A stretch of 64,000 nucleotides of DNA from Flavihumibacter fluvii (GTDB lineage Bacteria > Bacteroidota > Bacteroidia > Chitinophagales > Chitinophagaceae), in contig NZ_CP092333.1 of NCBI RefSeq assembly GCF_018595675.2, positions 3,992,001 to 4,056,000 of the forward strand, in the 5' to 3' direction. Positions 24,798-46,442 of this stretch are shown here, piece by piece; position 1 is the stretch's first letter, and every line of letters begins with the position of its first letter. Below the pieces are notes generated by a model, which was given only the letters and a program-made list of their open reading frames with translations, searched no databases and was not told the DNA's origin. A program made the translations under genes and the position numbers.

Positions 24798-24815
24798 TGG
24801 CATGAAGTTTTAATG
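24798..24815 (+). promoter_or_regulatory. TGG-N-A-N5-TTT element upstream of the YtxH gene
   Basis: TGGCATG-AAG-TTTTAATG. The TGGCA half equals the -24 box of sigma-54 promoters, and the TTT lies at the right spacing for the -12 box, but the GC of the -12 is replaced by TA. Taking GG as -25/-24, transcription would start near 24824, 34 bases before the ATG. The same pattern recurs before several genes in this region. Confidence 0.35.
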
Positions 24816-24857
24816 TATGGATTAAAATCAACACATCACACTTTAAAATTATTCACT

Positions 24858-25127
24858 ATGAACACTAATTCAAAAATTGTTTTGGGCATTTTAGGAGCAG
24901 CTGCAGCAGGAGCGGTAATTGGTCTTTTAGTAGCACCTGAAAAAGGCTCGGATTTAAGGAATAAACTGTCAAATAATGCCAGGGACCTGGCCAGTGAGTT
25001 TGCGGATTGGCTTAATACAAGGCAAAAAGACCTGAAAGACGTTAAGAACTCCCTGGTAAGTTCAGCTGAAGGCCTGGCAGAAGAAGCCGGCGCCGAATGG
25101 AAAAAGGCGAAGAGTACATTGAGTTAA
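24858..25127 (+). CDS. YtxH domain protein
   Basis: The ATG at 24858 gives 89 residues. A glycine/alanine-rich membrane segment (VLGILGAAAAGAVIGLLVAP, residues about 8-27) followed by EKGSDLRNKL is the YtxH signature, and the rest is an amphipathic helix rich in Lys and Glu. YtxH proteins are general-stress-induced membrane-associated proteins in many bacteria. It is the first gene of a three-gene cassette with a holin-like and an unknown protein, and it is followed by a terminator-like hairpin that could limit read-through into the other two. Confidence 0.85.
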   Translation: MNTNSKIVLGILGAAAAGAVIGLLVAPEKGSDLRNKLSNNARDLASEFADWLNTRQKDLKDVKNSLVSSAEGLAEEAGAEWKKAKSTLS

Positions 25128-25135
25128 TCCACAAT

Positions 25136-25165
25136 CCGCACAGTAACTGCTGTGCGGAATTTTTT
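25136..25165 (+). terminator. Hairpin with T-tract between the YtxH and holin-like genes
   Basis: An 8-base stem, CCGCACAG (25136-25143) and CTGTGCGG (25150-25157), is followed by six T (25160-25165). It lies 12 bases before the next ATG, so it probably works as a partial terminator or attenuator that keeps ytxH mRNA in excess over the downstream genes. Confidence 0.7.
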
Positions 25166-25176
25166 AAAATACTTTT

Positions 25177-25518
25177 ATGGATGATTTAAGAGATACTGCC
25201 GAAGAGGTTATTGACCATTCAGGCGACCTCCTCGAAACCTATTACCGGCTATTATTAGTTAATGCCACGGAGAAGGGAAGTGCCGTGATTTCAGTTGGTA
25301 TATCAGCAGTCCTGGTTGGATTTCTTGCAGCTATGGCAATTCTGTTAGCAGGGGTTGGCATGGCCTGGTGGATAGGTGAGGTATTACAGAATATGAAGGC
25401 TGGTTTTTTTATAATGGGCGGCGTCTTTATTTTAATGTTTTCGCTTTTTTTAGCGCTAAGCAAACGCACCATATACCCTTTTATCAGAAATACCATTATC
25501 CGGAAATTGTATGAATAA
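25177..25518 (+). CDS. Phage-holin-like superfamily membrane protein (DUF1469 type)
   Basis: This 113-residue protein has an N-terminal amphipathic helix and two membrane segments (about 38-63 and 72-93) with a short glycine-rich turn (NMKAGFFIMGG), as in the Phage_holin_3_6/DUF1469 family. Despite the name, these chromosomal proteins occur in stress cassettes beside YtxH and are not lysis genes. Its last eight bases overlap the start of the following gene, so the two are translationally coupled. Confidence 0.75.
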   Translation: MDDLRDTAEEVIDHSGDLLETYYRLLLVNATEKGSAVISVGISAVLVGFLAAMAILLAGVGMAWWIGEVLQNMKAGFFIMGGVFILMFSLFLALSKRTIYPFIRNTIIRKLYE

Positions 25519-25885
25519 ACAAAACAGCTACGAACTATTGCTGGTAGAAAAGAGGCGACTGGAAGACCTCGCCCAAAAGCAAAAAGCTATTATCAGGCAG
25601 GATCTTCATCAAATGAAACAACAGCTACTGCCGGCATACCAGTTATTGAATAAAATTGGCCTTTTTGAAAAAAATTCAGCACCAACACCATTATTGACTG
25701 CAGGAATCGGAATAGGCACGGATTTTTTATTGGGCAGCAAACTTTTACGGAAGGCAGGTCCGCTGCTTAAGTTTGGATTGCCAATTACTATCCGGTTAAT
25801 CGGATCCCGGATATTTTCGAAAAATGGTGGGATAATGCAAATGGTGGGCAGGCTCTTCAATAAAACCAAGCCGGTCCAGCATTAA
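25511..25885 (+). CDS. Hypothetical protein of the YtxH-holin cassette
   Basis: This 124-residue protein overlaps the holin-like gene by eight bases. The N-terminal 45 residues are a charged coiled-coil-like helix (KRRLEDLAQKQKAIIRQD). The C-terminal part is moderately hydrophobic, with Gly-rich stretches (TAGIGIGTDFLLGSKL) that may touch the membrane but do not look like clear spanning segments. I know no named family. Position and coupling suggest a partner of the holin-like protein. The stop overlaps that of the convergent response regulator by four bases. Confidence 0.7.
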   Translation: MNKQNSYELLLVEKRRLEDLAQKQKAIIRQDLHQMKQQLLPAYQLLNKIGLFEKNSAPTPLLTAGIGIGTDFLLGSKLLRKAGPLLKFGLPITIRLIGSRIFSKNGGIMQMVGRLFNKTKPVQH

Positions 25886-26316
25886 ACTGCAATCTGCGCG
25901 GTGTTCAGCCAATAGGCCCGGATATCTTCAATGGTACTTAATAAAGATTCAAATTCAACTGGTTTAACCACATAGGTATTTGCCCCTAATTCATAGCAAC
26001 GGCTGATCTCAGTTTCGTTTTTATTGGTGCTGAAAATGATGACGGGGATCTTTTTAAGGCGGGCATCTTCCTTTATTTCTTTCAATGCTTCACGGCCGTC
26101 TTTTTTAGGCATATTCAGGTCAAGCAAAATGAACTTTGGCAAATTACAATCCCTGACATTTTCCCCAGTTACCTGGTTCTTCAGATATTCCAGTAATTCA
26201 ACGCCATTTTCGACAAAAGTCAGTTTTTCTTCATAGCCTTTTTCTGCAAAAGCCGTTTCCAATAAGAAACGGTCATCAAAGTCGTCTTCTGCTACAAGGA
26301 TATAAATATTACTCAT
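25882..26316 (-). CDS. Rcp1-type single-domain response regulator
   Basis: This 144-residue receiver domain has acidic residues EDDFDD at 10-15, phospho-acceptor Asp66 (FILLDLNMP), Thr97 and Lys118 (YVVKPV). The extended loop between strand 2 and Asp66 and the lack of an output domain fit the Rcp1-like regulators that pair with phytochrome-like or CHASE kinases in Bacteroidota and Cyanobacteria. It lies 148 bases downstream of the CHASE3 histidine kinase on the same strand, its likely partner. A 9-base inverted repeat sits in its leader. Confidence 0.9.
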   Translation of the reverse strand: MSNIYILVAEDDFDDRFLLETAFAEKGYEEKLTFVENGVELLEYLKNQVTGENVRDCNLPKFILLDLNMPKKDGREALKEIKEDARLKKIPVIIFSTNKNETEISRCYELGANTYVVKPVEFESLLSTIEDIRAYWLNTAQIAV

Positions 26317-26349
26317 GGACTAAATTTAGCTGAATACAGTAGAAAGTAA

Positions 26350-26378
26350 TAGATATTATCGCAGATATGTAATATCTA
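26350..26378. repeat. Perfect 9-base inverted repeat before the Rcp1-type regulator
   Basis: TAGATATTA (26350-26358) and TAATATCTA (26370-26378), 11 bases apart, lie 34 to 62 bases upstream of the ATG on the minus strand. The spacing and AT content are more like an operator than a terminator. Confidence 0.45.
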
Positions 26379-26464
26379 CCTGTAATAGTATTGTTTAACA
26401 AACATTCGGGGAAAATTTGCCACTATTCTACAAAGCATTTTGGTTCCAGTTCGCCCCTAAAAAA

Positions 26465-27877
26465 TTAATCTGCAGGAAAATACAGAATAAAACTGGCGCC
26501 TTTACCGGGATTTCCTTCGGCGATGATAAACCCCTGGTGATTACTCATAACACGTTGGCAGATGGCAAGGCCAATACCTTTTCCGCTAAAATCTTCTGCG
26601 TTGTGTAATCGCCTGAATAACTGGAAGATTTTGTCGCGGTAAGCATTGTCAAAGCCAATGCCATTATCGTTGAAATGAATCGCCCAATAGCTTTTATGGA
26701 TGGATGTTTCCAAAAGGTTGCTCAGTTGTTCTCCTTTTAGCTGTTCGCTAAATATTGAAATTTCCGGCGGGATACCAGGTTTTGAGAATTTCAGTCCATT
26801 ATCAAGCAATGCCTGGAAAAGCAGGCTTACCTGGTTTGGATAGGCCATAAATTCCGGAAGCCGTCCTATTTGTATGGTGGCCCCGGTTGTGAAGATCGCC
26901 GGTTCATTTTTTTGAATCACCTCAGCCACGATATCCTGGAGCACTACCCATCGTTTTGTTTCTTCACTGCCAATAAGGTTCATATAATTCGAAATATCTT
27001 CCAGCATGCCCTGTAAGCGCCGGGCTGAAAAATCGATCCTGCCCAATATCATCAGGTCTTCTGCCGGTAAGGAATGTTTTTGTTTCATGAAAAGGCGATC
27101 AGAGAAAATGCGCATTTTCCGCACTGGTTCCTGCAGGTCATGCGATGCTGCAAATGCAAGCTGGGTCAGCTCATCATTACTTTGTTTTAATGCCTGTAAC
27201 TGTTGCTGAAGTGCTTTCTGGAAGCGAAGCCGGCGAAATAATTCTATCCCCAAAAAAATAAACAATACCAGCGAGATAACCCCAACCAGCATAGATAATT
27301 GCCTGAAGATATTGGGGGCTAATTTCTGGTAGGTTTCTTTCTGGATAAATCTTGTATGTAACAGGTTCTGCTCTTCCTTCCTGATTACATCCAGCTCAGA
27401 CCTGAATGCGTTCATCATTTCCTTGCCTTTCTCCATCCTTTCAATCATGACCTCATCGTAAGTGCCGGCATTTACGAGGGTGAGGGCATCTTCCAGGATT
27501 TTCAGGCGCAGAATGAGGGTATTCCGTAGCATGCCCAAACGAACCTGTTGCATATCATTATCGGTCATTAATTTTCTAAGGGAGTCCAGGATACCAGGGA
27601 TATTACGGCGGGCAAGGTAAAGGGGTTCCAGGTAGCTGCTGTCTTTTGTGAGGATGTATCCCCGAACGGCTGTTTCTGCATCTATAGCCAGGTTGCCGAG
27701 CACTTCAACTTTTTCAATCACCTGGTAGGTATGTTCAACCTGGTCTGAATAAGCAATCAGTGCATTCAGGCGCTTATTTGTCAATAAAACGAACACACCC
27801 AATACCAGGAGCATCAATACAAAGCCGATGGACAAATAAAGGAGGCTATACCTTCTATTCCTTAAATAATTTCCCAT
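26465..27877 (-). CDS. CHASE3-domain sensor histidine kinase
   Basis: The ATG at 27877 gives 470 residues (a TTG 16 codons upstream is less likely). Membrane segments at about 13-33 and 192-213 flank an extracytoplasmic all-helical CHASE3 domain with the typical AETAVRGYILTKDSSYLEPL stretch. After a short coiled coil comes a HisKA domain with the phosphorylated His246 (FAASHDLQEPVRKM), then an ATPase domain with NGIGF, FQLFRRLH and GKGIGLAICQRVM boxes. CHASE3 inputs sense unknown external or membrane signals. The probable partner is the Rcp1-type regulator just downstream. It is divergent from rpoN. Confidence 0.93.
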   Translation of the reverse strand: MGNYLRNRRYSLLYLSIGFVLMLLVLGVFVLLTNKRLNALIAYSDQVEHTYQVIEKVEVLGNLAIDAETAVRGYILTKDSSYLEPLYLARRNIPGILDSLRKLMTDNDMQQVRLGMLRNTLILRLKILEDALTLVNAGTYDEVMIERMEKGKEMMNAFRSELDVIRKEEQNLLHTRFIQKETYQKLAPNIFRQLSMLVGVISLVLFIFLGIELFRRLRFQKALQQQLQALKQSNDELTQLAFAASHDLQEPVRKMRIFSDRLFMKQKHSLPAEDLMILGRIDFSARRLQGMLEDISNYMNLIGSEETKRWVVLQDIVAEVIQKNEPAIFTTGATIQIGRLPEFMAYPNQVSLLFQALLDNGLKFSKPGIPPEISIFSEQLKGEQLSNLLETSIHKSYWAIHFNDNGIGFDNAYRDKIFQLFRRLHNAEDFSGKGIGLAICQRVMSNHQGFIIAEGNPGKGASFILYFPAD

Positions 27878-28058
27878 TTTGGGTAATAAATGCCCCACGA
27901 GTTGTTTTTCTTTCCTGGCGCTCAATGATAATGTGATTAATGTGTTATATAATTATTTGTAAATCAATTATTTATAATAGAGCAAAATTTTATTTCAACG
28001 CAATGGCATTTCTGGCTTCGGTATTGTTCCTACAACAGTGAACCTGAAAGCATGAATT

Positions 28059-29465
28059 ATGATTAGCCAACGCCAACAACAGCACCAGACCTTAAAGATA
28101 TTACCGCAACAGATTCAGCTGTTGAATCTTTTTCAGTTAAACAACCTGGAACTGCAAATGCACTTAAGGCAGGAAATGGATCAAAATCCATACCTCGAAG
28201 AAATTGGTTCGAACGAGGAGGTCGTAAAGGACAATTTTGATCCGAATGGGGAACAGGAATATAAAGATTGGGAAGAGTATGCATATAATGACCTGGCAGA
28301 CTATAAAACAGAACATGCCAATTATTTCAGTAGTGAAAACATCCCTGAAAAACCAATTGCTGCGATACCTGATTTCAGGGCTGAGGCAAAACAGGTCCTG
28401 ATGATGAGCACAACAGATGACCGCCTGCAAAAAATCGCAGCCTACCTGATCGATTCCCTGGAGGAATCCGGTTTCCTGGAAAAAGACCTGGAAAGCGTTG
28501 CTGATGACTTTTCTTTTTCCGGATTTATGACCACACCTGAGGAGGTACAAGCTGCACTGCAACTTGTACAGGCACTGGAGCCTGTGGGGTTGGGTTGCCG
28601 GGATATCAGGGAATGCTGGTTGCTTCAGCTTAAACGGATGCACATTACTGGCCCCGGAATCCAACATGCCATAGAATTGCTGGAGAAGTACTATGAAGAT
28701 TTTAAATCACGCCGATTTGAAAAAATAATGGCAGAACTGGGCATTGAACAGCATGCGTTCAGGGCAATTGTTGAATTACTTGGCAAATTACCCATGCGCC
28801 CGGTAGCAGAACAGCAATTGAGCATTTCCCCTAAAGACAATATTGTACCTGATGTTGAGATCAGCCTGGATAATGATGTTTTCACTATTACAGTGGGTGG
28901 CATAACTGCAGAGAATTTCAAAGTAAGCGACTCGCTGAAAGAAAATATGCAAAAAACCACCGACAAGGCTGCCCTGCAATTTCTGCGCAGCAAAATGCAG
29001 TCTGCCAACTGGATTTTATATGCGCTGCGCCAACGGAATGAAAGTATGCTGAAAATCATCAAAGCCATCGTTAACCTGCAGAAAGAGTACTTTACAGAGG
29101 GAGACATCACTAAGCTCCAACCTATGATCCTGAAGAATATTGCAGATCAGGTTGGATTGGATATTTCAACAGTATCGCGACTCACCAGTAATAAATATGC
29201 AGATACGCATTTTGGAACTATTCACCTTAAAGATTTGTTTACTGAAGGTATCATCAACAAGACCGGCGAAGTGATCAGCAACCGCGTTATCCGGAATGCC
29301 CTTGAAGAATTGATTGAGCAGGAGGATAAAAAGAATCCATTTACCGACCAGCAGCTGGTGGAGATTCTAATGAATAAGGGCATAAAGGTTGCGCGAAGGA
29401 CCATTGCCAAGTATCGTGACCTTATGCAGATACCGGTTGCACAATTAAGGTCTATGTGGGCATAA
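28059..29465 (+). CDS. rpoN: RNA polymerase sigma-54 factor
   Basis: This 468-residue protein has the Gln-rich N-terminal activator-interacting region (QIQLLNLFQLNNLELQMHL), the acidic region II, the core-binding domain, and a C-terminal domain ending with the RpoN box ARRTIAKYR just before the end. It directs polymerase to -24/-12 (GG-N10-GC) promoters and needs an ATPase activator. The next gene, 37 bases downstream, encodes such an activator, followed by two kinases, so the sigma factor and its control system look like one operon, which is unusual. The 133-base leader is very AT-rich with two copies of AATTATTT. Confidence 0.95.
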   Translation: MISQRQQQHQTLKILPQQIQLLNLFQLNNLELQMHLRQEMDQNPYLEEIGSNEEVVKDNFDPNGEQEYKDWEEYAYNDLADYKTEHANYFSSENIPEKPIAAIPDFRAEAKQVLMMSTTDDRLQKIAAYLIDSLEESGFLEKDLESVADDFSFSGFMTTPEEVQAALQLVQALEPVGLGCRDIRECWLLQLKRMHITGPGIQHAIELLEKYYEDFKSRRFEKIMAELGIEQHAFRAIVELLGKLPMRPVAEQQLSISPKDNIVPDVEISLDNDVFTITVGGITAENFKVSDSLKENMQKTTDKAALQFLRSKMQSANWILYALRQRNESMLKIIKAIVNLQKEYFTEGDITKLQPMILKNIADQVGLDISTVSRLTSNKYADTHFGTIHLKDLFTEGIINKTGEVISNRVIRNALEELIEQEDKKNPFTDQQLVEILMNKGIKVARRTIAKYRDLMQIPVAQLRSMWA

Positions 29466-29502
29466 ATTAATGAGTAAATTAGAAAACAGATAAGGATTTT
29501 AC

Positions 29503-30960
29503 ATGCAGAAAATTTTGGTCATAGATGATGACAGGGATATGTGTTTGTTATTAAACCGCTTCCTCACCAGGAAACAGTTTGAGGTCATTGAATTATACAA
29601 TGGGAAAAAAGCCATTGAGTATATGGAATCTGTAAAACCTGACCTGGTTCTATGTGATTTCAGGCTGGAAGACATGGATGGCAAACAAGTCCTGGTGAAA
29701 ACAAGGGAATTATATCCTTTGGTTCCTTTTATTATCATTACCGGATACAGCGATGTTAAACTTGCCGTAGAGGTCCTTAAACTGGGCGCCTTCGATTATG
29801 TCACAAAGCCGGTTTTCCCCGATGAGATCCTTGCATCAATCAGGAAAGCACTTGCATTACCTTCTTCCCCAAAACCTGCTTTGCCCGAAATTCAAGCACC
29901 AGGCGCAAAAAAGCCAACATCGCTTAAGCCAGCTGAACGATACATTTTCGGGAATTCCCCTGAAATGAAAAAGATCGTAAACCAAATTGAACTGGTTGCA
30001 CCAACCAATTATAGTGTGATTATATATGGCGAAAGCGGTAGTGGTAAAGAGGCCATCGCCAGCAAGATCCATGAGCAGAGCAAAAGAAAAGATAAACCCT
30101 TTATTGCCATCGATTGTGGCGCCTTGTCCAAAGAACTTGCCGGCAGTGAATTGTTTGGCCATGAAAAAGGGGCATTTACCGGTGCATTGAACCAAAAGAC
30201 GGGAAGCCTTGAACTGGCAGATGGTGGTACCGTATTCCTGGATGAAATAGCCAACCTGCCTTATGATGTCCAGGTGTCTTTATTAAGGGTGGTACAGGAA
30301 AGAAAAATCAGGCGGATAGGTGGTAATAAAGATATTTTATTGGATATCCGTATCATTGTTGCCTCTAATGAAAAGTTGTGGGAAGTAGCGCGTAATGGAA
30401 AATTCAGGGAAGACCTGTTTCACCGCTTTAATGAGTTCAGTATTAATTTGCCGCCTTTACGGGAAAGAAAGGGAGACATATTATTATATGCCCGGCATTT
30501 TTTGGCGCTGGCAAATGCAGAACTGGGTAAAACTATAACGGACTTTAGCCACGAGGTGCAGCAGGTATTGATCAATTATTCCTGGTATGGCAACCTTCGT
30601 GAGTTACAGAATGTGGTTAAAAGGGCAGCGTTGCTTACAGATACAGACCGGATAGAAATCCAGGCGCTTCCATTTGAAATTACATTTTACGATAAACTGA
30701 ATTTTGAACAGCCTGCAACGATCCAGGGAGCAACTGTTCCAATTAAACCAGCAGCAGAACCGGTTACTGAGACAGTCAAAAGGCCGATGATCACAGATCA
30801 GTCCCTTAAACTGGCCAGTATTGATGCAGAATATGAGACCATTGTAAAAGCCCTGCGCCAATCAAATTTCAATAAAACAAAAGCGGCCAAATTATTAAAC
30901 ATCGACCGCAAGACCTTGTATAATAAAATGAAAGAGTACCAGCAATTTAAAGATCTGTAA
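29503..30960 (+). CDS. NtrC-type sigma-54 activator response regulator
   Basis: This 485-residue protein has three domains. Receiver, residues 1-120, with Asp52 and Lys102. AAA+ ATPase, about 145-385, with Walker A GESGSGKE (176-183), the sigma-54 contact loop GAFTGA (223-228) and Walker B GTVFLDEIAN. Fis-type helix-turn-helix, about 450-483 (NKTKAAKLLNIDRKTLYNKM). With GAFTGA intact it should be able to open sigma-54 promoters when phosphorylated. Its stop codon shares one base with the ATG of the first kinase (TAATG). Confidence 0.95.
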   Translation: MQKILVIDDDRDMCLLLNRFLTRKQFEVIELYNGKKAIEYMESVKPDLVLCDFRLEDMDGKQVLVKTRELYPLVPFIIITGYSDVKLAVEVLKLGAFDYVTKPVFPDEILASIRKALALPSSPKPALPEIQAPGAKKPTSLKPAERYIFGNSPEMKKIVNQIELVAPTNYSVIIYGESGSGKEAIASKIHEQSKRKDKPFIAIDCGALSKELAGSELFGHEKGAFTGALNQKTGSLELADGGTVFLDEIANLPYDVQVSLLRVVQERKIRRIGGNKDILLDIRIIVASNEKLWEVARNGKFREDLFHRFNEFSINLPPLRERKGDILLYARHFLALANAELGKTITDFSHEVQQVLINYSWYGNLRELQNVVKRAALLTDTDRIEIQALPFEITFYDKLNFEQPATIQGATVPIKPAAEPVTETVKRPMITDQSLKLASIDAEYETIVKALRQSNFNKTKAAKLLNIDRKTLYNKMKEYQQFKDL

Positions 30961-32936
30961 TGGAAACAGAGCAAGACTTAAACCCGATACACCAATTAAG
31001 GTCGATACTGGCATCCGGAGAACTTAATGAAGACTTCCTGCTACAGGTTACGGACCTCTACCCGGCACTGGTATATGTGTATGATGCTGACCAGCGAAAA
31101 CTCCGCTATATCAACCGAAGGATCACCGATTTGCTGGGATATGCCTGGGAAGATGTGAGCAAGTGGGACAACGACCTGAACAAAATAATATTCGAGGAAG
31201 ACCAACAACTTGTTAAAGAAGAACTGGAAAAATATTACCAGCTCGAAGGCCAGTCCAGCTATTCATATAATTGCCGCCTAACCCATAAAACAGGAGATTA
31301 CCGGTATTTTAAGACAATTGGTACAGTCTTAAGGCGTAATGAAAAAGGTGCACCAGCGTCAATGCTTTTCATGGCGGAGGACATTACCGAACACATGCAG
31401 GCAGAGAAAGAAAAGAAAGCTGCCAGGAAACTAATGGATGAGACGGAAAAAATGCTCAGCATTGGGATGTGGAACTGGGATAAGGCAAGTGGTAAAACGG
31501 AATGGTCGGATGGTATGTATGCACTGATGGGATATACGCGGGAAGAAATGCCTGTGATTGGAGAAGATTTTTTCCTGTCGCATGTTTGCAAGCCTGAACA
31601 ACAGGACGTACGCAATAAAATTCAGGAAGCTATTGAAACGGGCAAAGAGTACCGCCTCGAGTTCTCAGTAGAATTGAAAGACGGCACCCGCCTTTTTCTC
31701 AATTGCCTTGGAAAACCTGAATTGAATGCTGCCGGCGAGGTGATCAGGCTTACCGGGATCAGTCGGGATATTTCAGACCAGTATATGCAGGCGTTGGAAT
31801 ATAAAGCCAATAAGGAATTGCAGAAGCAGACCGAACAGATGCTGAATTACGGTGTATTTATCTGGGATATAGAAAACGATATAACGACCTGGACCGACGG
31901 GCTGTATGAAATATTTGAGTTAAACAAAGAAGGCAATGAATCGATCGTTTCCTATGATTGGTACCTTTCACAGGTAGAAGCAGAAGACCGCTTGAGATTT
32001 GACCAGGCTATTAAATCATGCTTAAATGAAAGGACCGGTTTTGAATTGGATTACTCCATCATAACGGCCAGTGGACAACAAAAAATTGTAAGCACTAAGG
32101 CCAGCCTGATCAAGGACAATAATAATGTTCCCATCAGGATGGTTGGCAATACCCGCGATATCACACAATTTAAGAAAGTGCAAAATGAACTGCAGCGCAA
32201 CCTGCGGGAAGTGAACAGGTCTAACCTGGAGCTGGAGGAATTCGCTTATGCAGCATCGCATGACCTGCAGGAACCTTTAAGGAAAATTACCACCTTTGGC
32301 TCCCGATTGCAGCATAAATTCGCCAGTCAGTTGGGTGATGAAGGCGCCATGTATATAGACAGGATGCAGGTAGCAGCTGACAATATGCGCAACCTGATAG
32401 ATACCTTACTTGAGCTGTCCAGGGTTACCCGCAACAACCAGCCTTTTGAGAAAGTTGATATGAACCTGTTGGTTAAAGCAACCATCACTGACCTGGAACT
32501 TGCCGTTGATGAAACCGGCGCTGAAATCATCATTGGCCCATTGCCAATTATAGATGCCATTCCATCACAGCTTCGCCAGATGTTTACCAATTTACTTACA
32601 AATGCCTTGAAATTCAGGAAGCCGGGAATCAGTCCGCTAATACAGATCAGTGCAATAAAAATGGATCGGGCTGCAAAGGAGGAATTTTTTCTTGATCCGG
32701 AAAAGAATTTCTACAAAATAGATATCGCAGATAATGGAATAGGCTTCGACCAGGAATACGAACAACGTATCTTCCAGATCTTTCAGCGGTTACACGGAAA
32801 ATCAACCTATCCCGGCTCTGGTATTGGCCTGGCTATCTGTAAAAGAATTGCAGAACGGCATAGCGGACTCATCCATGCAAAAGGTGAGGAAGGGAAGGGG
32901 GCAGTATTTACGGTCATTTTACCCGATCAACAATAA
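30960..32936 (+). CDS. Soluble histidine kinase with three PAS domains
   Basis: This 658-residue protein has no membrane segment. Three PAS/PAC units follow each other, at about 25-145, 160-275 and 295-415. The second and third have PAS_3-like starts (GMWNWDKASGKTEWSDGMY and GVFIWDIENDITTWTDGLY). HisKA follows with His434 in YAASHDLQEPLRKI, then an ATPase domain with NGIGFDQEYEQRIF and SGIGLAICKRI boxes. It is translationally coupled to the sigma-54 activator, so it is its most likely phosphodonor. The PAS units may sense redox state or small ligands. No haem or flavin motif is obvious. Confidence 0.93.
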   Translation: METEQDLNPIHQLRSILASGELNEDFLLQVTDLYPALVYVYDADQRKLRYINRRITDLLGYAWEDVSKWDNDLNKIIFEEDQQLVKEELEKYYQLEGQSSYSYNCRLTHKTGDYRYFKTIGTVLRRNEKGAPASMLFMAEDITEHMQAEKEKKAARKLMDETEKMLSIGMWNWDKASGKTEWSDGMYALMGYTREEMPVIGEDFFLSHVCKPEQQDVRNKIQEAIETGKEYRLEFSVELKDGTRLFLNCLGKPELNAAGEVIRLTGISRDISDQYMQALEYKANKELQKQTEQMLNYGVFIWDIENDITTWTDGLYEIFELNKEGNESIVSYDWYLSQVEAEDRLRFDQAIKSCLNERTGFELDYSIITASGQQKIVSTKASLIKDNNNVPIRMVGNTRDITQFKKVQNELQRNLREVNRSNLELEEFAYAASHDLQEPLRKITTFGSRLQHKFASQLGDEGAMYIDRMQVAADNMRNLIDTLLELSRVTRNNQPFEKVDMNLLVKATITDLELAVDETGAEIIIGPLPIIDAIPSQLRQMFTNLLTNALKFRKPGISPLIQISAIKMDRAAKEEFFLDPEKNFYKIDIADNGIGFDQEYEQRIFQIFQRLHGKSTYPGSGIGLAICKRIAERHSGLIHAKGEEGKGAVFTVILPDQQ

Positions 32937-32944
32937 ACCAGTCT

Positions 32945-34399
32945 ATGTCGCCTTTCCTGCAGAAAACAACCCGCATCTTAATTGTGGATGATGATGAAGA
33001 TGACTTTTTTATAACCAGCCAATATATACTGGATATTGAAGAAGGCAAGTTTTATATTGAATGGGCCAAACAGTTCAATGAAGCTTTAGAGTTGATGCGC
33101 GACCATGCTTTTGATATCTATTTTATTGACTATCGGCTTGGTGCAAAGACAGGCGTCGAACTCCTACAACTGGCTATTGAGGCAAAATGTGAAGAGCCGA
33201 TCATCCTGCTTACGGGAAAGGGAAACCGTGAAATTGACCGGTTGGCCATGAAAATAGGTGCATTTGATTACCTGGTAAAATCAGAGTTAAATACAGAAAA
33301 ACTGGAAAGAACCATACGGTATGCACTGGAAAGATCCTCCTATATTAATGCGATCCGCAAAAATGAACGGAAATTCAGGAACATTTTTGAACAGTCTTTA
33401 GATGCAGTATTCATCACTGATATTAATTTGCAATTCAGGGAACTCAATAAAGCATCTAATGAATTGTTTGGATATTCATCAGAAACCTTGTTGCTGATGC
33501 ATCTACCTGATCTGTTGGAAGACCAGTTATTGGGTGAACGGTTGAAACATTACCTGGAGAGCGGCCAGGATGTGAATGACCTTGAGATGGATATCATTAC
33601 TGCCAGCGGGGATAAGCGGACCTGCATACTCTCTGCTACCGTAGAAACAGACCTTGAAGGCAAACATTATATCCAGGGCCTCTTACATGACATCTCTAAC
33701 CTGAAAAAAACCGAATGGCTCACGCTGCAGGCTGAAAAACTGGCGGCAACCGGACGACTGGTCAGGACCCTTGCGCATGAAGTAAGGAACCCGTTGAATA
33801 ATATCACCCTTTCTGCTGATCAGTTGCTGCAGGAAAACACCGATCAGGAGGCCGGTGTATACATGGATGTGATCAGGAGAAATGCCCAGCGGATTAGCAA
33901 TATTATCACACAATTGCTCAATAGCTCCAGGCAGGCCGAAATCGAAGTTATAGCCGGGACAATCCAATTATTACTGGAGGAGGTATTGGCAGAAGCTGCA
34001 GACAGCATTACACTGAAAGAGGTTGCCTTGGTGAAGCTCATCCAGGAAGGCCCGCTGACCATATTATCGGATCATCATAAACTGAAGATCGCTTTCATGA
34101 ATATTATTGTAAATGCCATTGAAGCGATGAATGATAAAAATGATGCGAAACTGATGATCAGGGTTTCCGGGAAGAATGGCTACGCCATAACAGAAATTAC
34201 AGATAATGGTTGCGGCATCTCACCTGAAAGTATGGGCCGTTTATTTGAACCATATTATACGTCTAAAAGAAATGGTATGGGACTCGGCCTTGCTTCAACC
34301 ATGAATATTATCCAATCGCACAAAGGATTTATTGAAGTTAATTCAGAGGTAGGGAGGGGCACTACATTCAGTGTTTATCTACCGCTGCACGAAGAATAA
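32945..34399 (+). CDS. Receiver-PAS-histidine kinase
   Basis: This 484-residue protein begins with a receiver domain (acidic DDDEDD at 15-20, Asp62 in FIDYRLGAKTG, Lys112 in YLVKSE), followed by a PAS domain (about 140-255) and a kinase core with His278 (RTLAHEVRNPLNN), then NGCGIS and GMGLGLASTMNI boxes. The receiver-first order suggests that its kinase activity is set by phosphorylation from another kinase, possibly the one encoded eight bases upstream. The kinase core is of the NtrB type, which commonly feeds NtrC-type activators. It is the last gene of the rpoN operon, with a hairpin at its stop. Confidence 0.93.
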   Translation: MSPFLQKTTRILIVDDDEDDFFITSQYILDIEEGKFYIEWAKQFNEALELMRDHAFDIYFIDYRLGAKTGVELLQLAIEAKCEEPIILLTGKGNREIDRLAMKIGAFDYLVKSELNTEKLERTIRYALERSSYINAIRKNERKFRNIFEQSLDAVFITDINLQFRELNKASNELFGYSSETLLLMHLPDLLEDQLLGERLKHYLESGQDVNDLEMDIITASGDKRTCILSATVETDLEGKHYIQGLLHDISNLKKTEWLTLQAEKLAATGRLVRTLAHEVRNPLNNITLSADQLLQENTDQEAGVYMDVIRRNAQRISNIITQLLNSSRQAEIEVIAGTIQLLLEEVLAEAADSITLKEVALVKLIQEGPLTILSDHHKLKIAFMNIIVNAIEAMNDKNDAKLMIRVSGKNGYAITEITDNGCGISPESMGRLFEPYYTSKRNGMGLGLASTMNIIQSHKGFIEVNSEVGRGTTFSVYLPLHEE

Positions 34400-34470: not shown

Positions 34471-34974
34471 CTAAAGTTTCATTTTGCCCATTACACCGTC
34501 CTCATATTTTTCGCCCTTTGCAATGGCCTTAAGCATATTTGCGAATACGATCATTTTATTGGAGCTGCTGTTCCAGTAATACGCTTCTTCTGTCATTACT
34601 TTTAACAGGCATAATTTCGGATCATCCAATCCTCCGGGAAACCACGCTTTCATTAAAGGGTTCCAGAATTCCTTCATCTTTGATTTATCAATGATGATTT
34701 TACAGGAGCCTTTGATATTCAGGTAAATATTTTTCCCTGGATGCGCATATATAAGATTTACCGAATTATCTTTTGAAACCTCCTGGATTTTTTCTGAGTA
34801 TTCATTTGTGAAAAACCAGATATTGGCTTCATCGTCAATGTGGACAGTTCCCATTGGACGACTTGCAATGGATCCCTTATCATCTGTTGTCGTAAACATG
34901 CAGATATCCACCTCATGTATCATTTTACTCAGGGCCTGGATATTTGCTGCTGTTTGATTATTTGTCTTTTCCAT
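34471..34974 (-). CDS. General stress protein 26-like PPOX-fold flavoprotein
   Basis: The ATG at 34974 gives 167 residues starting MEKTNNQTAAN. It matches the pyridoxamine-phosphate-oxidase-like general stress family: VDICMFTTTD, IASRPMG, ANIWFFTNEYSEKI and VNLIYAHPGKNIYLNIKG strands, then the KEFWNPLMKAWFPGG segment. Relatives bind FMN or FAD and are induced by stress. The enzymatic role is unclear. A TGGCATG-type element lies 24 bases upstream (34998-35015). Confidence 0.88.
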   Translation of the reverse strand: MEKTNNQTAANIQALSKMIHEVDICMFTTTDDKGSIASRPMGTVHIDDEANIWFFTNEYSEKIQEVSKDNSVNLIYAHPGKNIYLNIKGSCKIIIDKSKMKEFWNPLMKAWFPGGLDDPKLCLLKVMTEEAYYWNSSSNKMIVFANMLKAIAKGEKYEDGVMGKMKL

Positions 34975-34997: not shown

Positions 34998-35015
34998 TAT
35001 TAAAACACCATGCCA
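34998..35015 (-). promoter_or_regulatory. TGG-N-A-N5-TTT element upstream of the PPOX gene
   Basis: On the minus strand TGGCATG-GTG-TTTTAATA, nearly the same as the element before the YtxH gene (15 of 18 positions). Counting from GG as -25/-24, the start would be near 34989, 15 bases before the ATG at 34974. The 186-base gap to 35161 holds nothing else I can call. Confidence 0.35.
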
Positions 35016-35160
35016 CGGAACGCTTACCTGTATAGATTCCCTACCCGGCTCAATCAGGTACAGTAACTCCCCACTCAAAGCGCCTGATCGAATATTCCGG
35101 GGATGATTTTCTACAAAATGGTGTCAAAAATTTGAAGCAGAAGTATCCGGCCCTTGGTGC

Positions 35161-37400: not shown

Positions 37401-37862
37401 TTAGAGCACCTTGTGCAAGTCGAGGTATTTTTTAATCACATCATGAGATGTCCGTAAGGATTGTTGCTGGCCGGTGATCATCTGCCGGATCGTGGTACTC
37501 ATTTCAGCGTCTGATGCAAGGGCCTCATTATAGGCTTTCTGTGCAGCATCTTCTCCAAATTCGCACAATTCCAGGATGGATTGCCTTTCTTTTGAACTGA
37601 ATGCTGTTCTGACATCCATCCAGGTCCGGTAAATCATGCCGGAAACGGTGGTTCCTTCAGCAGGTGCTTCGCCAAGATCCTGTACGGCTGCCGTTAATTC
37701 ACGTACATTGTCGCGGCTGTCATTTTCCATCTTGCTGAAAATGGCTTTCAGATCCACGTCTATGTCATCCGCTTCAGTAATTGCTTTTTCGTAACCTTCA
37801 ATCCGGTCATTATTTATTCGGATAAGGTCATTTAATACTTCAGATAATGCTGTGTTTGCCAT
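37401..37862 (-). CDS. PA2169-like four-helix-bundle protein (DUF2383)
   Basis: This 153-residue helical protein has the ferritin-like DUF2383/PA2169 pattern: LNDLIRINNDRIEGYEKAI at the start, RDNVREL in helix two, YRTWMDVRTAFSSKERQSIL in the middle and a C-terminal GQQQSLRTSHDVIKKYLD helix. No signal peptide. Relatives are found in stress and biofilm settings and their role is not settled. A TGGAATG-type element lies 21 bases upstream. Confidence 0.88.
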   Translation of the reverse strand: MANTALSEVLNDLIRINNDRIEGYEKAITEADDIDVDLKAIFSKMENDSRDNVRELTAAVQDLGEAPAEGTTVSGMIYRTWMDVRTAFSSKERQSILELCEFGEDAAQKAYNEALASDAEMSTTIRQMITGQQQSLRTSHDVIKKYLDLHKVL

Positions 37863-37882: not shown

Positions 37883-37900
37883 GGTAAAAAAGTCATTCCA
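37883..37900 (-). promoter_or_regulatory. TGG-N-A-N5-TTT element upstream of the PA2169-like gene
   Basis: On the minus strand TGGAATG-ACT-TTTTTACC. With GG as -25/-24 transcription would begin near 37874, 12 bases before the ATG at 37862, a spacing close to that seen at the PPOX and 38027 genes. Confidence 0.3.
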
Positions 37901-37987
37901 CAGCGCTGACCATTGCTATTATTTTTCCTTCATATAAAACGGGAAAATTATTCCCCATTTCCTGCAGCATATGTGGTCTTTCTGCTA

Positions 37988-38005
37988 TGGTATCCTTTTT
38001 TAGTA
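37988..38005 (+). promoter_or_regulatory. TGG-N-A-N5-TTT element upstream of gene 38027
   Basis: TGGTATC-CTT-TTTTAGTA. With GG as -25/-24 transcription would begin near 38014, 13 bases before the ATG at 38027. It faces away from the element at 37883-37900, so the two form a divergent pair of like elements about 90 bases apart. Confidence 0.3.
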
Positions 38006-38026: not shown

Positions 38027-38518
38027 ATGTCACACTATTCCACATTACAGCAATTGATGGGTAGCTTTAATTTTGGCCTGTTTTTCAACCTTAGTTCAAA
38101 CCATATTAAGTTGCCAAACGGCATTGTCAGGGTTTTGGATGTTGATGATGCCGGTTATTGCTGGTTCCTTTTTCAGTATTCTGTAGAAGATACTTTCGAT
38201 ATTGAAACTGAATTCCCGGCACGCTTCAGGTTATATGAAAAGGGGCGGGATTGTTATGTGGAAGTAAATGGCACTGCTGCCTACATAACTGATCCGGGAG
38301 AGTGGACAAAATGCGCTAAAATATCTTATGGAATGGCCAAGGCTTTACAATACCAGGGATTGGTAATCCGGTTACAAATTGAACAGGCCATTGTTTATCA
38401 ATGTAAAAGATATTCCAGAAGAAACAAGGTGCAAAAAATTATGGATGGGGTTGAATCATGGGTAAATGGTAAAAGAGTTTCTGAGACCATCTACCAGTCT
38501 GCGATTTCATTATATTAA
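38027..38518 (+). CDS. Hypothetical protein
   Basis: The ATG at 38027 gives 163 residues. Any upstream frame would encode an unrelated hydrophobic stretch across the promoter region. The protein seems beta-rich in its first 110 residues (GFNFGLFF-like start, IVRVLDVDDAGYCWFLFQYS, FRLYEKGRDCYVEVNG), a pattern reminiscent of the flavin-binding split barrel of PPOX stress proteins, though I cannot see cofactor residues. A basic helix with RRNKVQKIMDGVESW ends it. It is followed after nine bases by another unknown gene, and both are probably co-expressed. Confidence 0.65.
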   Translation: MSHYSTLQQLMGSFNFGLFFNLSSNHIKLPNGIVRVLDVDDAGYCWFLFQYSVEDTFDIETEFPARFRLYEKGRDCYVEVNGTAAYITDPGEWTKCAKISYGMAKALQYQGLVIRLQIEQAIVYQCKRYSRRNKVQKIMDGVESWVNGKRVSETIYQSAISLY

Positions 38519-38527
38519 ATATATTTT

Positions 38528-39094: not shown

Positions 39095-39120
39095 GCCTGG
39101 TTTTTCAGGCTTTTTTATTT
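39093..39120 (+). terminator. Intrinsic terminator after the 38.0-39.1 kb pair
   Basis: AAGCCTG (39093-39099), a six-base loop, CAGGCTT (39106-39112), then a T-rich run. It begins inside the stop codon of the forward gene and lies across the last codons of the convergent minus-strand gene. Confidence 0.8.
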
Positions 39121-39317
39121 CCACCGAGAACTATTGCAACTCCTGCAATTGTTACAATTAAACCTGCGTACATTGGCCAGTTAACACTCTTTTTTTCGTT
39201 CCTGTTAATTTCAACCGGTCCAAGGTCAACAATTTTCTTTTCCTGCGTAAAGCTGAATCCCCTGAAGATCAACATAGCGATTCCGGCGATGATCAGCACA
39301 ATTCCAAATGTTTTCAT
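39105..39317 (-). CDS. DUF3185-like small membrane protein
   Basis: This 70-residue protein has two hydrophobic segments (about 4-22 and 48-66) joined by a polar linker with KKIVDLGPVEINRNEKK, as in the DUF3185 family. It is predicted to lie in the inner membrane with a Gly-rich second helix (LIVTIAGVAIVLGG). Function unknown. Relatives are common near stress genes in Bacteroidota. Its last codons overlap the terminator of the convergent pair. Confidence 0.78.
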   Translation of the reverse strand: MKTFGIVLIIAGIAMLIFRGFSFTQEKKIVDLGPVEINRNEKKSVNWPMYAGLIVTIAGVAIVLGGNKKA

Positions 39318-39439
39318 ATACTTATTTTAATGTTTTCCCGGGGTGTAAGTTCCTTTATTAATACCAACAGCCCGTGGTGGTGTAAATTTTACCCTTCTTT
39401 ATCCGGAATAAAAAAATTATGCCCGGTGCTTTGGTAAAC

Positions 39440-39457
39440 TGGCAGTAACTTTAGGTA
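39440..39457 (+). promoter_or_regulatory. TGG-N-A-N5-TTT element upstream of hpf
   Basis: TGGCAGT-AAC-TTTAGGTA. With GG as -25/-24 transcription would begin near 39466, 36 bases before the ATG at 39502, about the same leader length as predicted for the YtxH gene. Confidence 0.3.
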
Positions 39458-39834: not shown

Positions 39835-39837
39835 CTA

Positions 39838-40179: not shown

Positions 40180-40240
40180 CGTTGTTTTTGGGCAAAGAAA
40201 GGAAAAAATGCCGGTCTTTGGTTATTGGCCTGATCTTTAA

Positions 40241-40714: not shown

Positions 40715-40776
40715 GGTATAAGGTTTAGGTGTCCTATAAGGTACGCCATTATTGTGTAATCACCCGCCTGGTCTAC

Positions 40777-41859: not shown

Positions 41860-41928
41860 TGGTTTGAAATGGAAGGTACGAAAATGAGCCTTGTATATTT
41901 TTCATAACTTTGCGCCTCAATTCTTCCC

Positions 41929-43776: not shown

Positions 43777-43829
43777 TTTCGGTCAATAGTTTATTGTTGA
43801 CACATTAATTTACCCCCATATCCATCTTC

Positions 43830-43845
43830 TGGCAACATATTTGCT
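43830..43845 (+). promoter_or_regulatory. Consensus sigma-54 (-24/-12) promoter
   Basis: TGGCAACATATTTGCT has GG at 43831-43832 and GC at 43843-43844, exactly ten bases between, and agrees with TGGCAc-N5-TTGCt at all but one position. Transcription would begin near 43856, giving a 120-base leader before the SixA-type gene at 43976. It shares TGG-N-A-N5-TTT with the incomplete elements of the 24-40 kb block. Confidence 0.6.
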
Positions 43846-43975
43846 AATATTTTGCGACCGACCGTTTTTAAGACATAACCTATGAGGGACCAGTTAAACA
43901 GGCCTGTTTATATTTCCCATTTTGTACCCTTTGTAAAGCAGTTAAGGAATCACAAAACCCAGCTACCTTTAGATC

Positions 43976-44467
43976 ATGAAGACCTTATATGTAGTGAGGC
44001 ATGCAAAAAGCAGCTGGGGTGACTTAACAACACCAGATTTTGATCGACCATTAAGTGATCGCGGGCAGCGTAATGCGCCAGAAATGGCGCAGCGTTTGCT
44101 TTCCAGGGGCTTCAGGATTGATGCCTTTGTGACCAGCACGGCCAGGCGCGCCATGCAAACCTCCCTGTATTTTATTAAAGCATATGGCCGGTCTCCTGAA
44201 GAGCTGATTCTTCGTGAAGACCTTTACCATGCCCCGGCTGAAGTCTATTTTTCTGTTGTTGCACAACAGGATGACAAGTACTCATCCATCGCAATATTTG
44301 GCCATAATCCGGGCATCAGCGCTTTTGTAAATGAACTGACAACAACCAGGATCGATGACATGCCTACCTGTGCCATTTTTGCGGTCCAGGCTGATGTCAG
44401 GCACTGGGCAGAATTCCCCGCAGCAAAAAAGCAGTTTTTATTTTTTGATACACCTAAACAGGGTTAG
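43976..44467 (+). CDS. SixA-type phosphohistidine phosphatase
   Basis: This 163-residue protein of the histidine phosphatase superfamily has a short SixA-like form: YVVRHAKSSWGD places the nucleophile His near residue 8, and SDRGQRNAPEMAQRL, TSTARRAMQTS and GHNPGISAFVNEL supply the second Arg and His. SixA removes phosphate from histidine of phosphorelay proteins. Its likely sigma-54 promoter makes a link to the two-component proteins of the rpoN block attractive, though not shown. The end overlaps the convergent transporter gene by 14 bases. Confidence 0.9.
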   Translation: MKTLYVVRHAKSSWGDLTTPDFDRPLSDRGQRNAPEMAQRLLSRGFRIDAFVTSTARRAMQTSLYFIKAYGRSPEELILREDLYHAPAEVYFSVVAQQDDKYSSIAIFGHNPGISAFVNELTTTRIDDMPTCAIFAVQADVRHWAEFPAAKKQFLFFDTPKQG

Positions 44468-45347
44468 GACTTTTCCTTCCCACCAGCCACACGCCCGAAA
44501 TAATCAGTATTGCCGCCAGGATTTTATTCATAGCGAGCTCTTCCCCAAGGAAAACAACCGCAATAATGGTGGCGAAAATCGGTTGGGTATAAATATATGA
44601 ACCCGTGACCCCCGCACCCAGTTTACTGATGCCATATAAATTGAACAGGTAGGCGAAAAAGGTTGCGCCAAAAACAATCATGGCCAGGGACATCCATTCA
44701 AGTCCGGCGAAACGCTCCCAGTGAATGGTCCGGAATTCGGACCAACCTATAAGGGCTACAAAGGGCAATCCAATGGTAAATACCCACCGCATCACATGTA
44801 TGGGCTTGTATTCCTCCATTAAGGGTTTTACAAGGGCAAAATAAAAAGCATAGGAAATGGCACTGATAATCACCAGGATATTTCCAAAAAGCATATTTTC
44901 TGCCTTTCCCTCGTGGCCATTACCGGCCACCAAAAAAACCGCTCCTGCAATACCCAGGGCAAGCCCGGTTAACTTCCAGGAGGTCAGGGCTTCCTTATCG
45001 ATCCATACGGCTGCAAAACCTATAAATATGGGTGTAGCCAGTTCCAGCAGGGCTGCATGAATACTAAATGTCAGCGAAAGTCCCTTTATAAAGAGCAATT
45101 GTGTTATCACAATGCCGGTGATAGCACAAAGTATAAATCGCGGGATATGTGCTCTTTTAATCCCAATCCTGCCGGGATAGGCCAATAATAGAACCCAGAA
45201 CAACAACACACAAACGGCTACCCTGATATAATTAAGGGCAAATGGTGGAATATATCCCTGGGTAATATGCTGAACAGCGCTGAAATTGATCCCGAAGAAG
45301 AGATTGGCTGCCAGGACAGCCAGGTGTGGTTGGAGATCGCGGCTCAA
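44454..45347 (-). CDS. EamA/DMT superfamily transporter
   Basis: This 297-residue protein has ten predicted membrane segments in two five-helix EamA repeats (about 8-140 and 153-290). The second repeat has the usual GAGVTGSYIYTQPIFATIIAV stretch. It would export or exchange a small metabolite across the inner membrane, substrate unknown. The only workable start I see is TTG at 45347, 17 bases after the glycosyltransferase gene, so the two probably form one unit. Confidence 0.9.
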   Translation of the reverse strand: MSRDLQPHLAVLAANLFFGINFSAVQHITQGYIPPFALNYIRVAVCVLLFWVLLLAYPGRIGIKRAHIPRFILCAITGIVITQLLFIKGLSLTFSIHAALLELATPIFIGFAAVWIDKEALTSWKLTGLALGIAGAVFLVAGNGHEGKAENMLFGNILVIISAISYAFYFALVKPLMEEYKPIHVMRWVFTIGLPFVALIGWSEFRTIHWERFAGLEWMSLAMIVFGATFFAYLFNLYGISKLGAGVTGSYIYTQPIFATIIAVVFLGEELAMNKILAAILIISGVWLVGRKSPNPV

Positions 45348-45364
45348 ATTTTTCCGTAAATATA

Positions 45365-46405
45365 TTATTGGATCGCTGCGAGAAGCTCGGAAACCTGCAA
45401 TTTGTTTTGGTCAATGGCGGTAATCCGGCCCTGGCTGGCTAGAAAGCCGGAAAGGTATTCCTGTTCTGTTTGTCCGGGTGTTGCTACCATAAAACATTGT
45501 TTTTTGAGCGGAATAAGGTCCATAATACTGCTATACCCACTCCTGCAAAGGATGGCCCGCGCATTGGCCACTTCCTGGGAAAACCCGGCAACGGACAGGT
45601 GATTATACACCCGGGCATTGGGAATATTGGGAAGATTGGCCTTTTCAAGGGGCAAGCCCCGCACCAGTACCATGGATTCCCCTGGCCGGGCGGACCATTG
45701 TTTGATAACCAGCTTTTCCAGGATGGTCCTTTGCGGTTCCGGACCCGAAAGCAGGACCAACAACTGGGTGTTGCTATTGGGTTCTGGTGTAGTGAGCCGG
45801 CTAAGCGGACCCAGGTAACGGACCGGGATAGCAGGCAGGAGTGCCGGATGCGATAATTCGCCCGCCAGCGATGGCTCCTTTTCAAAATCGGGCACCCAGC
45901 ATTCTGTAAACCGGTTGATCAGTTTATACAGGCGTCGTTGAACCAGGTGGTTAACGCCATCCCCAAAAGCCGTTTTTACCAGTAACTGGTGGGTGACCAG
46001 GTAGGAGGGGATGGTGGAACAGGATAACCCATACCGGTTGTCACTAATGATGGCATCGAAGGCCTGGGCATCTAATATGGTATCAAGCCAGTTGGCCTCC
46101 GCCCTAATGGTCCACAGGATGCCAGGCATTGAAAATACAAGCCTGGCAACGGTTACGGCTCGGTTTTTGTGGTATTTTATATCGTATAGGGGCGGTGTGA
46201 GAAAAGAGATATTTGGGAATGCTTCATTGATTATAGCCCGCTGTGCACCAGTGGCAGCAACGGTAACCTGCGCATTCTTTTCATTGATCAGGCGCCCTAT
46301 AAGGGGTATGCATCGGCTGGCGTGACCCAGTCCCCAATCGAGCGGAGCCACCAGGATTCTGGCGTTTTGTGAAATATTTTGTGGAAAATCAGAAAAATGG
46401 CGCAC
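45365..46405 (-). CDS. MurG-like glycosyltransferase-fold protein
   Basis: This 346-residue protein starts with GTG at 46405. The N-terminal half has the GT-B nucleotide-sugar fold start ARILVAPLDWGLGHASRCIPLIGRL. The C-terminal half has the family-28-like LLVLLSGPEPQR and ILCRSGYSSIMDLIPLKKQCFMVATPGQTEQEYLSGFL, the donor-binding motif seen in MurG-type enzymes and UDP-GlcNAc 2-epimerase-like folds. It probably moves a sugar onto a lipid or glycan in the cytoplasm. Donor and acceptor are unknown. A weaker reading is an uncharacterised UDP-sugar-binding protein. Confidence 0.78.
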   Translation of the reverse strand: MRHFSDFPQNISQNARILVAPLDWGLGHASRCIPLIGRLINEKNAQVTVAATGAQRAIINEAFPNISFLTPPLYDIKYHKNRAVTVARLVFSMPGILWTIRAEANWLDTILDAQAFDAIISDNRYGLSCSTIPSYLVTHQLLVKTAFGDGVNHLVQRRLYKLINRFTECWVPDFEKEPSLAGELSHPALLPAIPVRYLGPLSRLTTPEPNSNTQLLVLLSGPEPQRTILEKLVIKQWSARPGESMVLVRGLPLEKANLPNIPNARVYNHLSVAGFSQEVANARAILCRSGYSSIMDLIPLKKQCFMVATPGQTEQEYLSGFLASQGRITAIDQNKLQVSELLAAIQ

Positions 46406-46424
46406 TCTTAAATACTTTTTTCTC

Positions 46425-46442
46425 TGGAAATAAGTTTAAATT
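46425..46442 (+). promoter_or_regulatory. TGG-N-A-N5-TTT element upstream of the small lipoprotein
   Basis: TGGAAATAAG-TTTAAATT, with GG at 46426-46427. The implied start near 46451 leaves only five bases before the ATG at 46456, so this match is less convincing than the others. Confidence 0.2.

Follow-up and report, generated by a model that had tools for sequence, protein, structure and literature searches.

A predicted T-rich, sigma-54-like promoter element with an upstream palindrome recurs before stress-type genes around the operon of a second rpoN in Flavihumibacter fluvii and related Chitinophagaceae

The 64-kb stretch of the Flavihumibacter fluvii genome analysed here (positions 3,992,001 to 4,056,000 of contig NZ_CP092333.1, hereafter the window) carries a second gene for sigma-54, rpoN2, in an operon of regulatory genes, and around it lie stress-type genes preceded by a short element, TGG-N-A-N5-TTT, that the original prediction had picked out at six places. 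Two rpoN genes are present on the single 5.0-Mb contig: the window copy (28059..29465, + strand), which encodes RpoN2 (468 residues), and a copy at C1:4450866-4452335, which encodes RpoN1 and is 35% identical to RpoN2 at the protein level. In Pfam searches the activator-interacting, core-binding and DNA-binding domains of sigma-54 (PF00309, PF04963 and PF04552) all exceed the cut-off in RpoN2, and the RpoN box that reads the -24 half of the promoter (ARRTVAKYR) appears as ARRTIAKYR, with minor changes across the aligned RpoN2 proteins. On the same strand follow the gene for an NtrC-type enhancer-binding protein (EBP; 29503..30960), which has a receiver domain, an AAA+ sigma-54 activation domain (PF00158) with an intact GAFTGA motif and an HTH_8 DNA-binding domain (PF02954), and the genes for a PAS histidine kinase (30960..32936) and a receiver-PAS histidine kinase (32945..34399), both assigned with Pfam. 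The rpoN2 neighbourhood, kinases included, is syntenic in L003, L004 and L005 (loci of relatives are labelled L, genomes G), the last from Flavihumibacter petaseus NBRC 106054, whose RpoN2 is 72% identical to that of the window.

All six elements are found at the coordinates, on the strands and with the pattern first reported, but the loose pattern by itself proves nothing, because it is common genome-wide (2082 copies in the 5.0-Mb genome, against 1516 of the reversed pattern) and occurs in the window at its expected count (28 found, 26.6 expected). When the window is scored with a matrix whose training set was drawn from the RpoN2 loci of other genera, the window itself and its four closest relatives being excluded, four of the six find support: those before ytxH (TGGCATGAAGTTTTAATG, 24798..24815, +; score 12.2), the PPOX/GS26-like gene (TGGCATGGTGTTTTAATA, 34998..35015, -; 14.6), the PA2169/DUF2383 gene (TGGAATGACTTTTTTACC, 37883..37900, -; 14.9) and gene 38027 (TGGTATCCTTTTTTAGTA, 37988..38005, +; 11.6), the last being the weakest, with 16 places in the window scoring as well. 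To these is added an element missed by the original prediction, which lies before a divergent response regulator gene (TGGCACTGGTTTTATACT, 24675..24692, -; 14.6). Of the 19 genomic copies of a tighter form, TGGCAY-N4-TTTWWA, three lie within 10.3 kb here, against 0.04 expected for this stretch, which was chosen post hoc.

The supported elements are conserved in relatives. The ytxH element is kept in L003/L042 (one and the same contig, for which L003 was excluded from counts), L004 and L005, and is found also before ytxH in L043; it reads TGGCATAAAATTTTATAA in L003, TGGCACGAAGTTTTAACG in L004 and TGGCATGAAGTTTTAATA in L005, within flanks that have diverged. The L005 orthologue of the PPOX-like gene is preceded by TGGCACAGAATTTTTAGA, and the response-regulator element is kept in L003, L004 and L005. 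Upstream of the response regulator beside rpoN2, TGGCATGGTTCTTTT is kept at L003:9294, L004:1874 and L005:9365, each on the - strand.

The remaining two copies of the original set, before hpf (39440..39457, +; score 5.3) and before the gene for a 43-residue lipoprotein (46425..46442, +; 3.0), score at background level, 172 and 391 window places respectively scoring equally, and neither is paired with the upstream palindrome described below. The hpf orthologue in L003, the single one examined, has no element in the hpf direction; conservation in orthologous promoters, which had been put forward as a check, is supported for ytxH and PPOX and unsupported for hpf. Near hpf, a candidate element on the opposite strand (GGGCATAATTTTTTTATT, 39407..39424, -; 17.2) faces instead a 70-residue membrane protein (39105-39317, -), and its L042 orthologue, TGGCACAATTTTTTAATG near L042 17725, likewise faces a membrane protein of 68-70 residues beside hpf; a joint scan of the window found no palindrome paired with this candidate. 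The predicted leader lengths follow from the positions (12 bases for DUF2383, 13 for gene 38027, 15 for PPOX, 34 for ytxH, 36 for hpf and 5 for the lipoprotein gene), but the argument drawn from them, that they form two groups of 12-15 and 34-36 bases with the lipoprotein as an outlier, is weakened because it loses two of its six points with the hpf and lipoprotein elements.

The core motif was defined from up to 20 kb fetched around RpoN2, with gene starts set by a simple open-reading-frame rule and not by a gene finder, and with the matrix built from upstream segments. Its consensus, TGGYAYRRTTTTTTWA, is strongest at GG, A5 and T11-T13, the GG of TGGYAY being nearly invariant, partly by construction. 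The -24 half is sigma-54-like, as first proposed. The GC of the -12 half is indeed lost, but its place is taken by a T run covering positions 11-14, often followed by A, rather than by the 'TA' initially described: before any training, T already accounted for 0.71 of the bases at position 12 and 0.63 at position 13 behind upstream TGGCAY, TTGC being found in 2 of 59, and none of the five supported window sites has GC, TT being kept at positions 12-13.

Between genes, matches to TGGYAYRRTTTTTTWA scoring at least 13 occur at 6.9 per 10 kb at RpoN2 loci, compared with 1.4 elsewhere in genomes with RpoN2 and 1.3 in genomes without it, a roughly fivefold difference obtained with a matrix trained on those same loci. 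Because of this training set, a held-out test was added in which half of the loci served for training and the other half for testing, same-genus pairs being kept together; the two halves gave intergenic densities of 4.4 and 3.05 matches per 10 kb, compared with 0.67 and 0.46 within genes. The enrichment upstream of genes that the original prediction had named as its check is thus found at RpoN2 loci, held-out halves included. Upstream segments contained 138 matches in sense, 107 in antisense and 11 after shuffling; as divergent genes have their upstream DNA in common, the antisense figure makes a poor control. In the sense orientation only, the spacing between element and ATG shows a peak at 20-25 bases (23 of 95, against 1 of 63 in antisense), so that leaders would be about 12-17 bases long with position 1 set at -26.

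A de novo search upstream of the elements revealed a palindrome, TGTAGA-N6-TCTACA, that is perfect in 9 of 116 upstreams (seven distinct palindromes, two of which are each assigned to two elements), against at most one or two in shuffles. Perfect or with one mismatch, it occurs 23 times in 735 kb of RpoN2 loci and once in 1.29 Mb of other stretches. Its refined form, YGNRGAA-N4-TTCYNCR, lies within 150 bp of 45 of the 116 elements, compared with 46 of 4000 random windows, the matrix for this upstream activating sequence (UAS) having been trained on the same 116 elements with those of the window removed. Three such palindromes, recorded without strand, accompany the five supported window elements: ACGGGCAATTTTATTCCCGT (24730..24749; UAS score 9.1, lower than the other two), which is shared by the ytxH and response-regulator elements and lies between them; CCGGGGATGATTTTCTACAA (35097..35116; 16.6), 91 bp upstream of the PPOX element; and ACGGGAAAATTATTCCCCAT (37939..37958; 15.6) between the DUF2383 and 38027 elements, which share it as well. 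Two of the three are thus each located between a divergent pair of elements, and at the place equivalent to 24730..24749 the palindromes of L004, L005 and L042 score 14.3-14.7. A joint scan for T-rich element plus UAS returned exactly these five places in the window, where 0.24 were expected, at cut-offs (11.5 and 9) that were placed slightly below the weakest site of the window once its scores were known; it returned 54 pairs in 714 kb of RpoN2 loci and 3 in 796 kb of control stretches. Each of the five supported sites therefore has upstream of it a palindrome that is a putative EBP site, such as sigma-54 promoters need. Before rpoN2 itself no T-rich element was found in the window; an enhancer-like palindrome at 27879-27898 (score 12.7), in the first codons of a CHASE3 kinase gene about 160 bp before rpoN2, may possibly serve rpoN2 autoregulation.

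The genes behind the five window elements encode a YtxH protein (24858..25127, +; PF12732), a single-domain response regulator (24318..24665, -; PF00072), a PPOX-like protein (34471..34974, -; PF16242), a PA2169/DUF2383 protein (37401..37862, -; PF09537) and the product of gene 38027 (38027..38518, +), whose resemblance to PPOX-like proteins is weak and misses the cut-off (PF16242, E=0.0058). We scanned 101 of the 132 proteins encoded downstream of elements, near-duplicates and spurious-looking reading frames having been removed by hand, and found that the commonest Pfam families were YtxH (12), DUF2383 (11), response regulators (10) and DUF5670 (7), followed by SDR, DUF4142 and DUF1328 (4 each), CHASE3 kinases (3), and DUF892, PPOX-like and Ku proteins (2 each). 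The EBP gene itself stands behind a T-rich element in 3 of the 101 cases. Several of these families are stress-type, and the view that the targets form a coherent set is upheld; judged by gene content, they look like a general stress regulon. In L043 a T-rich element precedes the gene for a 54-residue protein resembling DUF1328 members. Around other EBP genes of the F. fluvii genome T-rich sites are few, and no second regulon stands out. At G000:C1:1991388 (L124:15389) a strong T-rich element, CGGCATGATTTTTTCATA (16.4), stands just before a gene for a protein of 1026 residues, AsmA-like as we take it from its appearance, with another EBP gene about 5 kb away.

In a family sample of 147 genomes, none lacks a sigma-54 match, and matches of the RpoN2 type are present in 35; these 35 yield 37 RpoN2-type matches of at least 346.9 bits and 39-100% identity, and each of them has at least one further sigma-54 match, the non-RpoN2-type matches staying below 300 bits among the matches listed. 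In a tree built from 39 RpoN2 and 24 RpoN1 proteins the two kinds separate cleanly with 100/100 support, bootstrap convergence being incomplete. For genome-wide motif counts and the EBP search we used 80 of the 147 genomes, comprising all 35 with RpoN2 and 45 high-completeness genomes without it. An EBP match at E<=1e-90 is present in all 35 RpoN2 genomes and adjoins rpoN2 in 33 of them; it is present as well in 23 of the 45 genomes without RpoN2, where it is mostly 43-57% identical (62-66% in 6 of the 23).

To compare promoter classes, we turned to grpE, for which 30 of the 80 genomes were used (16 with and 14 without RpoN2; loci L202-L231), and to DUF2383 genes, represented by the best 30 of 37 loci in RpoN2 genomes and the best 30 of 35 loci in genomes without it. 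At grpE, TGGCAR-N5-TTG is found in 27 of 30 loci, TGGCAAAAAAATTGACC being the promoter in F. fluvii itself, and just one of the 30 passes the T-rich matrix. Position 15 of the 27 sites is A in 18 and C in 6, so that TTGA is commoner than TTGC, which may be why searches for canonical TTGC find little. The DUF2383 promoters of RpoN2 genomes, by contrast, belong to the T-rich class at 24 of 30 loci and to the TTG class at 2. The palindrome lies near 1 of the 27 grpE sites. Element position 6 also differs between grpE and DUF2383 sites, but we rely on the counts of promoter classes and leave unused the p-values for positions 6 and 14, which are partly fixed by the patterns used to pick the sites. 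The canonical word TGGCACRN4TTGCW was tried as a marker of the RpoN1 regulon and rejected, since it matches in 42 of the 80 genomes, mostly one to three times and about as often as the reversed pattern, and is clearly raised only in G097 (23 against 2 reversed) and G026 (8 against 1); grpE is the better RpoN1 marker. Several of the canonical sites in G097 read TGGCACACTTTTTGCT; besides two RpoN2-type genes, this genome has one more sigma-54 match.

We conclude from the sequences that four of the six elements first noted, together with the response-regulator site, belong to a predicted class of EBP-linked, sigma-54-like stress promoters that recurs across the family. Probably these elements are the core promoters of a sigma-54-type stress regulon run by RpoN2 and the adjoining EBP. 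In such a regulon RpoN2 would keep RNA polymerase on promoters that combine a -24 TGGYAY with a T-rich -12 half, in which TTTT or TTTA replaces GC; the EBP, phosphorylated by the neighbouring kinases, would bind YGNRGAA-N4-TTCYNCR at a distance of about 40-90 bp on the upstream side, where one copy may serve two divergent genes, and would drive open-complex formation, turning on YtxH, PA2169, PPOX and similar genes in response to what we infer to be stress. RpoN2 is the best candidate sigma factor here, but the promoter class is not exclusive to RpoN2 genomes, for T-rich elements cluster at RpoN2 loci and yet occur without RpoN2 too. A wider proposal, that the general stress response of a Bacteroidota lineage depends on a dedicated sigma-54 paralogue whose -12 preference has switched from GC to a T run, with an EBP, kinases and palindrome of its own, and insulated by promoter sequence from the ordinary sigma-54 chaperone regulon, is one we put forward tentatively, as short of probable.

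Several observations weigh against assigning the elements to RpoN2 and its EBP. The EBP match lies away from rpoN2 in two of the 35 RpoN2 genomes (G035 and G077), and genome-wide counts of TGGCAYN4TTTWWA do not separate genomes with RpoN2 (663, and 297 reversed) from those without (917, and 471 reversed), the reversed word being a poor control because it contains CG. No UAS at threshold accompanies 71 of the 116 elements, and of 12 DUF2383 genes far from rpoN2, outside the training set, 8 have T-rich promoters but only 2 have a UAS. Raising the joint cut-offs to 12.5 and 10 leaves two of the five window sites, with 42 pairs at RpoN2 loci and 2 in control stretches. DUF2383 promoters are T-rich in 13 of the 30 loci of genomes without an RpoN2-type match, and the stress clusters of such genomes (20 stretches were selected, 13 with a passing DUF2383 promoter and 7 others) carry several T-rich elements, often with the same spacing; the T-rich reading thus needs no RpoN2. 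Since the RpoN1 proteins of 20 genomes without RpoN2 have no RpoN2-like change in the DNA-binding region, either RpoN1 would also read T-rich promoters or another factor not found here would do so. The former case would make a T-rich -12 half a general sigma-54 option in the family: RpoN1 would read both TTG(A/C) and T-rich sites, the EBP would define the regulon, and RpoN2 would be an additional copy, drawn into the EBP operon in some lineages. The T-rich DUF2383 promoters just described speak for it, as do the EBP matches in 23 of 45 genomes and the co-occurrence of DUF2383 and EBP in genomes without RpoN2 (20 with both, 3 and 3 with one of the two, 19 with neither; Fisher p=7.8e-7). It fits less well with the grpE promoters, T-rich in one of 30 whether or not RpoN2 is present, and with the UAS and the highest element density, which accompany RpoN2 loci. 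In genomes without RpoN2 the palindrome is rare, being found at 3 of 31 T-rich elements, and the joint pair 10 times in 390 kb of DUF2383 stretches. TTG-type DUF2383 promoters are also commoner without RpoN2 (6 of 19, against 1 of 25 with it; p=0.03 for a comparison chosen post hoc), leaving room for RpoN2 to have sharpened the T preference. We regard this general-option account as possible but rather doubtful.

The choice offered by the original prediction, between a sigma-54 with relaxed -12 choice and another alternative sigma factor, falls nearer the former, with the qualification that T-rich promoters are found in genomes both with and without RpoN2. That a different factor, the primary sigma-A or one of the extracytoplasmic function (ECF) type, uses the element and that the -24-like TGG is coincidental would account for the missing -12 GC that defines sigma-54 promoters, for the T-rich sites in genomes lacking RpoN2 and for the difference at position 6 between grpE and DUF2383 sites. 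We nevertheless consider it unlikely, because GG and TT are spaced as in sigma-54 promoters, and because the elements cluster at rpoN2-EBP operons, stand before EBP genes and have the upstream palindrome; a sigma-A reading with boxes at -33 and -7 was rejected, since among 82 strong elements, each taken as a 46-base stretch, TAnnTTTG was found a single time, overlapping the element. That the matches arose by chance, the motif being loose and the upstream DNA rich in AT, agrees with the abundance of that motif in the genome and its unremarkable count in the window, and suits the hpf and lipoprotein copies. For the other four sites, the conservation of the ytxH element between diverged flanks, the held-out enrichment and the pairing with the UAS run contrary to it, and as an explanation of the six matches it is highly improbable.

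We know of no master regulator of the general stress response in Bacteroidota, and among the papers listed in a search none was on one, judged by title. The present analysis yields a named candidate sigma factor, activator, enhancer, core promoter and gene list for such a response, which, if the assignment is true, would be ATP-dependent and enhancer-driven. The -12 GC of sigma-54 promoters probably contributes to the silence of the closed complex; natural sigma-54-like promoters without it, and two -12 classes in one cell, open -12 recognition and EBP insulation to domain-swap study. The targets have the flavour of those of the general stress factors sigma-B of Bacillus and sigma-S of E. coli, which include YtxH, PPOX/GS26-like, YciE-like DUF892, PA2169 and DUF1328 proteins, but here sigma-54 and an EBP would run them, not a sigma-70-type factor. 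Among open-licence papers, judged by listed titles, we found none on a second RpoN or on T-rich sigma-54 promoters in Chitinophagaceae. In the parts consulted, a 2025 cross-phylum survey gives the consensus TGGCAC-N5-7-TTGCT and describes its own method as of limited reach for distant promoters (PMC12316311), and RpoN and sigma-54 are absent from the main text, as far as seen, of two Bacteroides transcriptome papers (PMC12596196, PMC7366714).

The nearest parallels come from bacteria with at least two RpoN copies whose promoter sets differ near -12. The promoters of the paralogous sigma-54 factors of Rhodobacter (Cereibacter) sphaeroides, RpoN1 and RpoN2, are described as differing only at -11, and those of Bradyrhizobium japonicum only at -12 (PMC3162934, as excerpted); here, in a different phylum, GC gives way to a run of T and a further shift occurs at element position 6. 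In the account available to us, rpoN2 of R. sphaeroides is part of the very flagellar locus on which it acts (PMC7277832), whereas the targets here are stress-type genes. Within Bacteroidota, the closest likeness is to the stress-related sigma-54 regulon of Flavobacterium psychrophilum, in which, according to the portions seen, a single sigma-54 with typical -24/-12 promoters (motif SM4) serves grpE and other chaperone genes along with gliding genes (PMC9723704); a sigma-54-like site likewise precedes grpE in 27 of 30 loci here. Unlike F. psychrophilum, the family studied here has a grpE class in which TTGA outnumbers TTGC (18 against 6 of 27) and, beside it, a YtxH/PA2169 class that is T-rich.

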